Below the pieces are notes generated by a model, which was given only the letters and a program-made list of their open reading frames with translations, was not told where the DNA came from and ran no database searches. The translations under genes and the position numbers were made by a program. Source: a virus. From it: a DNA stretch of 20,724 nt. Each line of letters opens with the position of its first letter. Position 1 is the first letter of the stretch. Below, in pieces: positions 14,180 through 20,318 of the stretch. The DNA lies in the IMG/VR virus record IMGVR_UViG_3300042320_001320, positions 1 through 20,724 of that record; one strand, written 5' to 3'.

Positions 14180-14549
14180 ACAAGCCCCTGAAGCTTTCCA
14201 TCCAGTGGAGCGCCCCATTCATTACGCCAGCGGTGGCTTAGAAGCTATCGAGGCAATGGAAGCAAGTATGACGCCCGAAGCTTTTCGCGGCTTCCTGAAA
14301 GGCAACATTCTGAAATACGTTTGGCGCTATGAGCAGAAAAATGGCCTAGAAGATTTAGAAAAAGCCAAGTGGTATCTTGGTCAGCTCATCTTCGCTCTTG
14401 AAACTGATCAAGAGCGTGAAGCTCTAGCTGCCATTGAAAACAATGTTGACAATGGTTGCAAAGATGGCTTCTGTCCAATGCCAGGCATTCGTTACGATCT
14501 CCCTGGTAAACAAGTGCTATTTGATCCCGTCCCAGTAGATAAAGCCTAA
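14169..14549 (+). CDS. DUF3310 family protein
   Basis: A 126-aa phage protein with the DUF3310 core: HPVERPIHYASGGLEAIEAM, FRGFLKGNILKYVWRYEQKN and GLEDLEKAKWYLGQLI. The family, often listed as phage nucleotide-kinase or SaV-like, sits near nucleotide genes but has no proven activity. The C-terminal 40 residues are less conserved and hold two cysteines. GAGGA (14156-14160) stands 8 bases before ATG 14169; ATG 14163 is possible. It overlaps the ThyX stop by 11 bases and is followed by a terminator. Confidence 0.75.
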   Translation: MPFEQAPEAFHPVERPIHYASGGLEAIEAMEASMTPEAFRGFLKGNILKYVWRYEQKNGLEDLEKAKWYLGQLIFALETDQEREALAAIENNVDNGCKDGFCPMPGIRYDLPGKQVLFDPVPVDKA

Positions 14550-15028
14550 GCTGCCTGCCATTCTGTATAACAAAAGCCCCCAGAAATGGGGGCTTCTTCT
14601 TTTGACGGTGGAATGTAATAATCACGCTCCTCCGCAAATGCTTCAATATCCTGCAAGGAAGTGTGGGCGCTAACAAAACTATTGTGATGCACCCACGCCA
14701 AAAGAATTTCTTCCCGCTTCTCAGTCCAGAAGCGCTGTGGGCGCCACCATTCAAAAATAGGCTCAGCTCCTTTTAGTAAATTACATGCTTGACAACTTGG
14801 CACTAAGTTATATTTTGCGAAATGAGGCCCGCCCTTGCTCTTTGGCACAATGTGATCAATAGTCAGCTTTTGATCCCATCGCCCGCAATATGCACAGGCG
14901 CATTGCCCGAGCGGTCCTCGCAAGGGATAATCCTCGAAAATGCTCTTACGGAATCTTCTTCTAGCGTCTCCAGGGCGAAGTTCAATGAGAGAGTAAAGCA
15001 GCTCATCGGGACCATTCGCTCTTGGCAT
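14546..15028 (-). CDS. HNH endonuclease (160 aa)
   Basis: A zinc-bound HNH nuclease: CAYC (45-48), TIDHIVPKSKGG with D58/H59 (57-67), NLVPSCQACNLLKG with N74, C79, C82, N83 and K86. The C-terminal half (FWTEKREEILLAWVHHN, then EERDYYIPPSKEE) is unrelated. Start chosen at ATG 15028 (MPRANGPDELLYSLI). Free-standing HNH genes are usually selfish homing enzymes or, next to terminases, packaging helpers. It faces the DUF3310 gene and diverges from the lysis cassette. Confidence 0.8.
   Translation of the reverse strand: MPRANGPDELLYSLIELRPGDARRRFRKSIFEDYPLRGPLGQCACAYCGRWDQKLTIDHIVPKSKGGPHFAKYNLVPSCQACNLLKGAEPIFEWWRPQRFWTEKREEILLAWVHHNSFVSAHTSLQDIEAFAEERDYYIPPSKEEAPISGGFCYTEWQAA
14574..14603 (+). 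terminator. Terminator closing the plus-strand nucleotide unit
   Basis: AAGCCCCC (14574-14581), AGAAAT loop, GGGGGCTT (14588-14595), then CTTCTTTT. It lies inside the 3' end of the opposing HNH gene and ends the plus-strand transcript 25 bases past the DUF3310 stop. Confidence 0.75.
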
Positions 15029-15089
15029 GGCACTATTTACTTTTTCTGCAAACAATCTAACGGGCAACAAGCAAATAATGCGTTTTAGC

Positions 15090-15115: not shown

Positions 15116-15325
15116 ATGGAACCATTCAAGCAAGGCATGGCCAATTTTGTGGCCACTATCACGGCTGGCATGCTTCTTTCCACGGGAGCCATGCTTATTA
15201 CTGTCGGCAATCAACAGGCCAAAGTGGCAGTGCAAATTGAAAGCATTACGGAAAAACTTAGCGCTCTAACGGACAAAATGAGCGATATTGAAACAAGAGT
15301 GCGCAGCCTTGAGATTAAACGCTAG
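15116..15325 (+). CDS. Membrane plus coiled-coil protein, holin- or spanin-like (69 aa)
   Basis: ATG 15116 has AGGGA upstream. MEPFKQGMANFVATITAGML runs into LSTGAMLITVG, one membrane helix, then a heptad-rich tail (VQIESITEKLSALTDKMSDI, ETRVRSLEIKR). A membrane anchor with a short coiled coil fits an inner-membrane lysis accessory (holin or i-spanin-like), supported by its place before a small TM protein and the endolysin. No sequence family is certain. Confidence 0.6.
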   Translation: MEPFKQGMANFVATITAGMLLSTGAMLITVGNQQAKVAVQIESITEKLSALTDKMSDIETRVRSLEIKR

Positions 15326-15366
15326 GCTTTAGGAACTCCCCTTTCCCATCTTTTAGGAGAATCATC

Positions 15367-15510
15367 ATGACTGGCGTCGAATGGTTCGTTGTTGGTGGCA
15401 TCATTGTTGCTGCTCTTGATCAAATTATTGAGCGCACTCCCTACAAAGAAAACAATATTCTGCAACTGCTTCTGACTGGTCTTAAGGCTATCTTCCGCGT
15501 GAAGGACTGA
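15367..15510 (+). CDS. Small membrane protein, holin candidate (47 aa)
   Basis: AGGAGA (15355-15360) precedes ATG 15367. MTGVEWFVVGGIIVAALDQI has one hydrophobic helix, then IERTPYKENNILQLLLTGLK and AIFRVKD, a shorter amphipathic segment. It stands 4 bases before the endolysin gene. Size, topology and position support a holin-type role; short TM proteins of this type are common in phage lysis cassettes. Confidence 0.6.
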   Translation: MTGVEWFVVGGIIVAALDQIIERTPYKENNILQLLLTGLKAIFRVKD

Positions 15511-15514
15511 AGCC

Positions 15515-16459
15515 ATGTGGGCTTCTAATAGAGCATTCTGGGATGAATGCTTTGCAATTGCCCGTAAATGTGGTGCTCGCTATCCAGAACTTGTTGCTGC
15601 ACAATGCTGCCTAGAAAGTGGCTTTGGAAAGCACACCTCTGGGAAAAATAATTTTTTAGGACTAAAGGGTGCGGGCACCACCACTTCCACTCAAGAATTT
15701 TACGATGGTCAATGGGTGACAATCAAAGCAGGCTTTATTGACTTTCCCAGTCTTGCCGCTTGCATTGAATATCTTGTTGCGCGTTGGTATAAGGATTATC
15801 GTCAATTCAAGGGCGTAAATAATGCGCCTAATCGTTATGCAGCGGCACGCATGCTGAAAGAGCAAAGCTATGCCACTGATCCAGAATATCCTGCAAAGCT
15901 TTCAAAGCTTATGAAGGAATACGCTCCAGAAACTACGCAATTTACTATGATTGGTCCCAAGAAGCGTCCTCAAGATTTTGGCTTTAAGCCTGGTGATTCG
16001 CATTTAATTGTGAACGATGCAGTGGAAACCATGAAAGCTTTTTCTTATGAAGGAAAGCTGCTGTGGGAAATTCCCTGCCTTGCTCGCGGGCAATATAGTG
16101 ACTTTGAATGGAAAATTACAAACTCTGACACGCCCGTGGGGGTATACGTGTTCGGAGAGGTATATAAAGACTACGAGCGTGTAGGCGATAAGCCTGCATA
16201 TGATCGCACTCTAATGGCGTATGGCTGGTACACCTTCGACATGATTGACTTGGAGGGTCAAGAGCGGAATAATGGTAGAGCTGGTATCGCGTGTCATGGC
16301 GGTGGTAGCGCTAATGGCTGGCCAGGTGCATGGGCACCTAATCAGCCCCTAGTTCCTACACATGGATGTATTCGCCTGAAAAATGTTGACCTTCGTGACA
16401 AAATTCTTCCTCTTTACAAGAAAGGTAAAATATTTTGTTCGGTTTTCCAGGAAGGCTAA
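15515..16459 (+). CDS. Endolysin: glucosaminidase domain fused to L,D-transpeptidase (YkuD)
   Basis: A 314-aa two-domain cell-wall enzyme. Residues 5-135 resemble GH73/FlgJ-type glucosaminidases: AQCCLESGFGKHTSGKNNFL with E34 as probable acid, then GLKGAG and YAAARMLKEQSYATDPEYPA. Residues 155-310 form a YkuD L,D-transpeptidase: PVGVYVFGE, H261 in IACHGGGSANG, and PTHGCIRLKNVDL with H283 and catalytic C285. The first cuts glycan strands; YkuD enzymes form or exchange peptide cross-links through meso-DAP. No signal peptide, so release would depend on the holin-like proteins upstream. It ends 4 bases into the opposing HNH gene. Confidence 0.8.
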   Translation: MWASNRAFWDECFAIARKCGARYPELVAAQCCLESGFGKHTSGKNNFLGLKGAGTTTSTQEFYDGQWVTIKAGFIDFPSLAACIEYLVARWYKDYRQFKGVNNAPNRYAAARMLKEQSYATDPEYPAKLSKLMKEYAPETTQFTMIGPKKRPQDFGFKPGDSHLIVNDAVETMKAFSYEGKLLWEIPCLARGQYSDFEWKITNSDTPVGVYVFGEVYKDYERVGDKPAYDRTLMAYGWYTFDMIDLEGQERNNGRAGIACHGGGSANGWPGAWAPNQPLVPTHGCIRLKNVDLRDKILPLYKKGKIFCSVFQEG

Positions 16460-16983
16460 TCAACGTGTTTCCATATTTTGCGCAAACGAACAGCGCTAAT
16501 AACTGCTTGGCTTACTCCGTAGATCTTCGCTAAATCAACCTGCCTTTCATTGCTTGCACGTATGCATAGCACATCGACTTCAGTAAGTTTACTGGCAGGG
16601 TTCGCCGTGCCGCAAAGTAAGGTTCCATGCTTGACTTTATCTGCTTCGTTTTCTGCTTTAGTGCCCCATGCCAAATTATCAAGCCTATTATTGCTAGGAT
16701 CGCCATCTAAATGTCTAGCTTCGCAATTGTCTGGCCGTGGCCCGACAAAAGCCTCCAAGACTAGCCGATGAACAAGATGTTGCTTGTCCGGATTGCGCAA
16801 AAGAACTTTCTTGTATTTTCTGCTTTTTCCCGATGGTGATGGAGTGAAATAGCGAACTCCAGTTCTCCTGCGACCAGAATTAGCTCGGACCCATCGGTCT
16901 AAACTTCGCACCCGACCAAGATTGCTTACCTCGTAAACCCCTTCGTATCCAACGACGGGGCGCCATTCTTCTATCATGAACAT
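16456..16983 (-). CDS. NUMOD4-HNH homing-type endonuclease (175 aa)
   Basis: N-terminal NUMOD4-like EEWRPVVGYEGVYEVSNLGR and VRSL (5-28), an HNH core with HLVHRLVLEAFVGPRP (69-84) and EARHLDGDPSNNRLDNLAWG (88-107), and a C-terminal HTH (VDLAKIYGVSQAVISAVRLR, 149-168) that would bind the target. ATG 16983 is chosen for the strong Shine-Dalgarno sequence 7 bases upstream. It stands minus-strand between two plus-strand genes, as expected of a mobile homing gene. Confidence 0.85.
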   Translation of the reverse strand: MFMIEEWRPVVGYEGVYEVSNLGRVRSLDRWVRANSGRRRTGVRYFTPSPSGKSRKYKKVLLRNPDKQHLVHRLVLEAFVGPRPDNCEARHLDGDPSNNRLDNLAWGTKAENEADKVKHGTLLCGTANPASKLTEVDVLCIRASNERQVDLAKIYGVSQAVISAVRLRKIWKHVD

Positions 16984-16990
16984 GATGCCT

Positions 16991-16997
16991 ACCTCCT
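16991..16997 (-). promoter_or_regulatory. Strong Shine-Dalgarno sequence fixing the HNH start
   Basis: AGGAGGT on the minus strand, 7 bases before ATG 16983. Nearly every other gene in the window lacks such a site, which points to a different origin for this HNH gene. Confidence 0.75.
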
Positions 16998-17009
16998 TTA
17001 GGTGTCCGT

Positions 17010-17045
17010 GGGCAGGGAATTGCACTTCCGCTGCCCTTTAATCTT
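17010..17045 (+). terminator. Candidate terminator downstream of the lysis cassette
   Basis: GGGCAG/CTGCCC (17010-17015/17031-17036) with an inner GGAA/TTCC (17016-17019/17026-17029) and a 6-base loop, then TTTAATCTT. It would stop plus transcripts that run from the lysis genes through the antisense HNH gene. Confidence 0.5.
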
Positions 17046-19466: not shown

Positions 19467-20318
19467 TCACAGCACTGGCATCTCGTATTCTTTTGTTGTA
19501 TTGCAATAGTGTTTAAAGATGATTTCACTTGTGTTGCCTGCCCATGCTGCAACTTGCGGCACTGGAATGCCAGCCTCCACCCAACGACTAATGGCAGTAT
19601 GGCGGCAATCATACGGGCGATACAAATGGGAAATGATTTCAGCTTCATGCAAAGGCATTAGCTTTTTCCTGAAATAACTCTGAAATGCAAGCCTATCCCA
19701 CGGGAAAATATATTCATTGTCTTGCGGAAGCTCGTCAAGCATTTCTTGGCAGCGACTATTCAAGGGCACCCAACGGCGCTTGTTTGTTTTAGTGCTGTTT
19801 TTCAAGCCATGAGTGAGTGTATAGTTTGAATGAACAAGAATCTTTCCATCCTTGATATCAACCCATTTTAATGCCCTTACTTCTCCAGTGCGCATTGCAG
19901 TTTGCAGCATAAATTCTGTATAAATTGACCAGTTTACGTTGCGATAGGTGCGCTTTGCTTCCAATGCCGCCAGCACTAGTGCCGTTTCGCTGCGAGGGAT
20001 GACGATAATTTCTTCATCGCGCTGAGGGGCTTTTGGCATTTTGAAACTTGCTAGCGGGTTTTTGTCAAGAATACCAACGTCTTCTTGCGCTGCCCAGCGA
20101 TACATCGTCTTCACGTACATTGCCACGCGACGAGAAGAAAGCACTGGCTTTTCTCCTAAAGTCCAAATCATTATTTTCCTTGCATCGTTAATATTTTGAA
20201 TGGGACAACGACCAAGCCACTTTTCTACTTGTTTGTAGTCAGAAGTGAGACTGGTAGCACATAAAGAAATGGAGCGCTCTTCCATGAAGGCGCTCCAGAG
20301 TTGAGAGAGAGTGGTCAT
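19467..20318 (-). CDS. int: Tyrosine recombinase (phage integrase)
   Basis: A 283-aa integrase: an N-terminal SAM-like core-binding domain (about 1-95) and a catalytic domain with R143 (AMRTGEVRALKW), a Lys near 177-183 (TKTNKRRWVPL), R239-H240-T241 (YDCRHTAISRW) and the nucleophile Y271 (IIFKHYCN). Two conserved His positions differ: Y236 before the R239 box and N262 in WAGNTSE, both seen in some active members. It would integrate or excise the element at an att site. A good promoter lies upstream (20339-20367). No attachment site or tRNA is visible nearby. Confidence 0.9.
   Translation of the reverse strand: MTTLSQLWSAFMEERSISLCATSLTSDYKQVEKWLGRCPIQNINDARKIMIWTLGEKPVLSSRRVAMYVKTMYRWAAQEDVGILDKNPLASFKMPKAPQRDEEIIVIPRSETALVLAALEAKRTYRNVNWSIYTEFMLQTAMRTGEVRALKWVDIKDGKILVHSNYTLTHGLKNSTKTNKRRWVPLNSRCQEMLDELPQDNEYIFPWDRLAFQSYFRKKLMPLHEAEIISHLYRPYDCRHTAISRWVEAGIPVPQVAAWAGNTSEIIFKHYCNTTKEYEMPVL

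Follow-up and report, generated by a model that had tools for sequence, protein, structure and literature searches.

The window analyzed here is a 20,724-base virus fragment (IMG/VR record IMGVR_UViG_3300042320_001320). The virus is a cyanophage, and the hosts are freshwater and estuarine cyanobacteria. Positions 15116-16459 hold two small membrane protein genes followed by a gene whose product joins a GH73 glucosaminidase domain to a YkuD (L,D-transpeptidase-fold) module (Table 1).

Table 1. Features of the cassette and of the fusion endolysin
Feature	Position	Strand	Basis or remark
69-aa small membrane protein	15116..15325	+	One N-terminal TM stretch; C-terminal part charged, coiled-coil-like
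47-aa one-TM protein	15367..15510	+	Directly ahead of the endolysin gene
GH73-YkuD fusion endolysin, 314 aa	15515..16459	+	ORF call and Pfam
GH73 glucosaminidase domain, residues 23-136	15581..15922	+	Pfam PF01832
Catalytic Glu34	15614-15616	+	In the GH73 domain
YkuD (L,D-transpeptidase-fold) module, residues 145-314	15947..16456	+	Unit shuffled between architectures
His261, catalytic base of the YkuD fold	16295..16297	+	Invariant, 151/151 modules
THGCIR active-site loop	16358..16375	+	His283 variable; Cys285 invariant nucleophile; Arg287 invariant, transpeptidase-type

A lysis cassette conserved among cyanophages

The small proteins each have a single hydrophobic stretch, with KD-19 values of 1.77 for the 69-aa protein and 1.71 for the 47-aa protein. 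The former, which has a homolog in the equivalent position of phage S-CBS4 (gp065), is probably a holin- or spanin-like lysis protein. The latter matches phrog_22542 (E 5.7e-5) and is a candidate holin; a weaker homolog, S-CBS3 gp21, lies two genes ahead of the S-CBS3 endolysin. When 137 loci with the GH73-YkuD fusion were compared, the 69-aa gene was found upstream in 125 and the 47-aa gene in 124, with a gap of mostly 4-10 nt between the end of the 47-aa gene and the endolysin gene. Because these small one-TM genes are kept upstream of the fusion, and because PHROGs groups the 314-aa protein with endolysins, the reading of this region as a lysis cassette, already proposed in the initial annotation, is well supported, with the holin part a putative one. 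The cassette is flanked on the opposite strand by two HNH endonuclease genes, at 14546-15070 (-) and 16456-17025 (-), the second of which shares 4 bases with the end of the endolysin gene. A tyrosine-type integrase gene (phrog_1) at 19467-20318 (-), close to the fragment end, suggests that the window phage may be temperate.

The fusion itself was likewise borne out by a Pfam domain search, in which both domains scored above their curated cut-offs. The glucosaminidase domain matched with an E-value of 1.1e-17 and 65.3 bits (cut-off 30.2), its predicted fold matched Auto, FlgJ and the T. maritima endo-GlcNAcase (Z 12-14.5), and Glu34 was kept in 87/87 distinct GH73-YkuD proteins. An AlphaFold model of the whole 314-aa protein had a pLDDT of 86. 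No signal peptide was apparent on this protein, which ends with the YkuD domain and has no NTF2-like C-terminal domain. A chance fusion or assembly artifact was rejected, as the fusion is present in 82 distinct full-length proteins as well as in the isolated phage S-CBS4.

Fold and active site of the YkuD domain

Known L,D-transpeptidases build or trim the wall or tether proteins. The YkuD profile (PF03734) covers residues 179-294 of the fusion with an E-value of 7.2e-6 and 27.1 bits against a cut-off of 23.4. A separate AlphaFold model of the YkuD part (pLDDT 92.4, pTM 0.88) placed Bd1075 (2.6e-6), Pgp2 (2.4e-5) and B. subtilis YkuD (8.5e-5) at the top of the Foldseek ranks, and the DpaA structure 8ikr was also among the matches (E 6.8e-3). 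The structural search had been named beforehand as the result that could overturn the YkuD assignment, and it supported the fold: B. subtilis YkuD (1y7m) aligned over 113 residues with a VIA-align Z of 13.4 and an rmsd of 2.2. With this independent support from the separate domain model, we regard the predicted YkuD fold as settled. When PDB sequences were searched with the YkuD profile, zero relatives were returned, so the link to solved structures is one of fold comparison only. In a comparison with profiles of canonical host L,D-transpeptidases, the alignment was limited to 27 active-site columns (probability 87%). The carboxypeptidases Bd1075 (Z 13.2), Pgp2 (12.8) and Csd6 (12.7) tie with B. 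subtilis YkuD; mycobacterial transpeptidases reach about 11, and Tlde1a reaches 10.7 (rmsd 3.1, 126 aligned, 12% sequence identity). Given this tie, the fold does not decide the direction of the reaction.

Among 151 distinct YkuD modules, H261, G262, G263, G284, C285 and R287 are invariant. Position 283 is H, L, M or Y; THGC, the form in the window, is the most frequent motif among phage copies, while Leu occupies the position in every chromosomal copy sampled. E34, H261, H283 and C285 are all present as originally described, but H283, listed there as catalytic, is not invariant. The canonical L,D-transpeptidase motif is HXX14-17(S/T)HGC (PMC9638812), and the phage module departs from its spacing (15-18), with 20 residues between H261 and T282. 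Median pairwise dN/dS is 0.057 for YkuD and 0.069 for GH73, a sign of purifying selection. The idea of a degenerate YkuD domain was rejected on this residue conservation and low dN/dS, and with H261, C285 and R287 invariant and dN/dS about 0.06, the domain almost certainly functions as an enzyme. The same evidence bears on whether YkuD merely binds the cell wall to position GH73. In endolysins, the second domain is often a binder, and the motif residue H283 is variable, but Cys285 and His261, neither needed for binding alone, are invariant in all 151 modules, dN/dS is 0.057, and YkuD occurs as a separate gene too; we therefore consider a non-catalytic role very improbable.

Comparison with characterized enzymes of the same fold brings out one residue in particular. 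Arg two positions after the catalytic Cys (C+2) is typical of transpeptidases; DpaA-like hydrolases lack it and have Ala or Asn instead (PMC8263019), and in Csd6, Pgp2 and Bd1075 the position is occupied by Ala or Val (PMC8938487). All 151 modules carry Arg at C+2, as cross-linking transpeptidases do and in contrast to both DpaA and the Csd6/Pgp2/Bd1075 group, which counts against a hydrolase reading. The window YkuD shares its Cys/His pair with Bd1075, Pgp2 and Csd6 but differs from them in lacking the NTF2-like domain, in retaining this Arg and in sitting in a phage endolysin. It shares fold, Cys/His pair and C+2 Arg with B. subtilis YkuD and LdtMt1/LdtMt2, differing from these in a longer His-to-Cys loop (24 positions), in the lack of an apparent signal peptide and in its fusion to a glycosidase.

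A module with three glycosidase partners

The closest relative in the phage collection is S-CBS4 gp063, an 84% identical full-length homolog with the same two small genes upstream, whose record says only lysozyme/endolysin and leaves YkuD unmentioned. The YkuD half by itself also matches S-CRM01 and phage B23 in that collection. Phage B23 has the reversed order YkuD-GH19, with GH19 below the Pfam cut-off (E 7e-4). S-CRM01 has two adjacent ORFs, one a GH24 endolysin and the other starting with an apparent GH24 end followed by YkuD; both frames combined (g113/g112, L004 4234-5543) can be read as one GH24-YkuD protein split by a frame change.

A pattern-limited scan of IMG/VR gave ~360 relatives, and the best 80 for each query were retrieved; many of the retrieved contigs are near-copies, some of them retrieved repeatedly. 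Among these best 80 per query, we observed 145 GH73-YkuD ORFs plus 10 that were cut, 46 with YkuD alone plus some cut, nine YkuD-GH19 fusions and seven in which an N-terminal extension precedes GH73-YkuD. In 16/27 distinct cases, the end of a stand-alone YkuD gene overlaps or abuts the start of a GH24 endolysin gene. The other 11 copies have no endolysin gene directly behind them; the GC-rich phages in this group have a GH24-like gene at a greater distance downstream (confirmed by Pfam in L093, with similar ORFs in L102, L108 and L113), and for three stand-alone copies (L170, L173 and L206), GH24, GH19 and GH73 were not detected in the available phage-contig stretch. The module is thus combined with three glycosidase families, GH73, GH24 and GH19, either fused to them or as an overlapping separate gene. 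Because related viruses pair it with three different wall-cutting enzymes, YkuD is probably a working part of lysis.

The two halves of the fusion appear to recombine. Relative to the window, one homolog (L023) is 64% identical in the GH73 half and 90% in the YkuD half, another (L215) is 92% and 77% identical in the respective halves, and across all pairs the GH73 and YkuD identities have a correlation of only 0.65, a pattern as expected of exchanged modules.

Bacterial genomes yielded 26 loci, 100% of them cyanobacterial, with GH24-YkuD and short N-domain-YkuD forms. The conserved chromosomal GH24-YkuD proteins of Cyanobium and Synechococcus (L229:3098-4510, L228, L230-L237, L251 and L252) have TLGC in place of THGC; at the loci inspected, a ~200-aa ORF lies ahead and the genes behind have no phage-family match. 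These genes are possibly domesticated lysis genes. Host genes were not upheld as a clear source of the phage module: an unrooted tree placed the chromosomal copies in separate clusters but does not show direction. A 'PQQ' pattern marks a small domain, either N-terminal or a linker, that recurs in YkuD proteins of chromosomes, in GH24 endolysins and in YkuD-GH19 fusions (L238-L250, L003 and L166-L183) and perhaps binds the wall.

Those module-bearing phages whose hosts are named infect Synechococcus; a freshwater reservoir was the source of S-CRM01, and the host of S-CBS4 is CB0101. In the family of one chromosomal carrier, YkuD domains are found in 75/151 genomes; the listed genomes that lack YkuD are mostly small (1.3-2.2 Mb), and those that bear it are mostly larger. 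As relatives in the host clade encode YkuD enzymes, L,D chemistry is probably present in the target wall, although we found no information on 3-3 links in picocyanobacterial peptidoglycan. The pattern hints at a possible link between these host enzymes and the YkuD of the phages. S-CBP3 grows on CB0101, as S-CBS4 does, without a YkuD module, which indicates that the module is not required for lysis.

Possible roles of YkuD in lysis

The architecture of related endolysins provides the strongest clue to function. PSS2, S-EIV1, S-CRES2 and S-CBP3 have the GH73 family and the two-activity layout of the window protein, but with C39 as the second domain (slightly under the C39 cut-off in S-CBP3). 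The S-CBS3 endolysin has the same layout, with GH24 and a recognized peptidase, M15, rather than YkuD. Since related cyanophage endolysins pair a glycosidase with a C39 or M15 peptidase, the most economical reading, by analogy, is that YkuD is the half that attacks stem peptides.

We therefore propose, as a reading we hold to be just probable, a bicatalytic endolysin in which YkuD supplies a stem-peptide-directed second activity whose chemistry would be net lytic, the exact bond being our assignment. In this model, the small membrane proteins would open the inner membrane and GH73 would, as its family suggests, cut the glycan strands. Cys285, aided by His261, would attack the bond on the carboxyl side of the meso-Dap L-centre, and the acyl-enzyme would be resolved by water or by a free D-amino acid. 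Tetrapeptides would thereby be trimmed, 3-3 and perhaps 4-3 cross-links opened, and the donors that the host needs to re-seal its wall removed. The activity would be that of an L,D-carboxy/endopeptidase or a D-amino-acid exchange. Besides the architecture, the top Foldseek ranks of the L,D-carboxypeptidases Bd1075 and Pgp2 and the replaceability of H283 by L, M or Y speak for this model, whereas the invariant C+2 Arg resembles that of transpeptidases.

Transpeptidase chemistry, not hydrolysis, might be the lysis activity of these cyanophages, with free D-amino acids or other molecules accepting the stem peptides so that cross-links are uncoupled or repair is blocked; we rate this as rather unlikely. 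In a related reading, YkuD would swap the terminal D-Ala for free D-amino acids, leaving stems unfit as donors and blocking wall repair. An invariant Arg is as expected for acyl transfer to an amine, and a precedent comes from Tlde1a, in which changing the His before Gly-Cys spared D-amino-acid exchange and greatly reduced cross-linking (PMC9638812). The natural variation at position 283 parallels that mutant, and Tlde1a, likewise a YkuD fold aimed at the bacterial wall, is among the structural matches. Tlde1a is an antibacterial effector secreted by a type VI system, and Tlde1 effectors are marked by a capping subdomain and D-amino-acid exchange; the resemblance seen here is one of fold (Z 10.7). 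Against this reading, sequence identity to Tlde1a is low and its Z lies ~2.5 below that of B. subtilis YkuD. Such capping would also require free periplasmic D-amino acids at lysis, and we judge it unlikely.

YkuD could instead make genuine 3-3 links that stiffen the wall ahead of lysis or delay lysis until the holin fires, with GH73 later overriding them. This reading is favored by the invariant Arg287, a feature of cross-linking enzymes, by B. subtilis YkuD as a top structural match and by THGC as the most frequent phage motif. Against this, several phage lineages have another residue in place of H283, every chromosomal copy sampled has Leu there, and YkuD occupies the slot where other cyanophages carry peptidases. 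Moreover, with no apparent signal peptide, and with YkuD fused to or overlapping the endolysin, YkuD and the glycosidase would be released together. We find this cross-linking role quite improbable. Of the three mechanisms suggested in the initial annotation, cutting or capping of stems best fits the comparative evidence, while wall protection draws on the transpeptidase-type Arg only.

A spanin-like job, in which YkuD would sever or form the bonds that join outer-membrane proteins to peptidoglycan, was also considered, as the host is a diderm and DpaA, a YkuD-fold enzyme that appeared in our fold search as 8ikr, detaches Lpp (PMC8263019). The DpaA-type loss of the C+2 Arg was not seen, however, Arg being present in 151/151 modules, and a covalent outer-membrane link in the host was not found in this analysis. 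DpaA-like detachment is weakened by the invariant Arg, and we hold the spanin-like role to be highly improbable.

The preferred bicatalytic endolysin has partial precedents in catalogs of lytic proteins. PhaLP lists YkuD as a rare endolysin catalytic domain, with 10 occurrences, under peptidases (PMC8310338), YkuD-containing lytic proteins are reported from Yellowstone viromes (PMC5017753) and a GH25-choline-binding-YkuD arrangement from gut phages (PMC13284279). These entries, like our analysis, count YkuD as an enzymatic endolysin domain, and they come without activity tests. The domain, first described as unexpected in an endolysin, is therefore already catalogued; in the literature searched, with most subscription journals outside its coverage, we found no tested phage YkuD endolysin. 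Nor did we find, in the literature consulted, a description of the cyanophage YkuD set with its three glycosidase partners and overlapping-gene version. New here are the breadth of this cyanophage YkuD set, its pairing with three glycosidases in two gene layouts, the invariant YkuD residues and the peptidase-slot argument.

As an enzyme for cyanobacterial peptidoglycan, GH73-YkuD is compact and open to testing, and the H/L/M/Y differences that occur naturally beside the catalytic Cys provide a ready set for the question of hydrolysis versus exchange versus cross-linking. If the proposed role is true, viruses would have adopted L,D-transpeptidase-fold chemistry for wall breaking, pairing it separately with GH73, GH24 and GH19.
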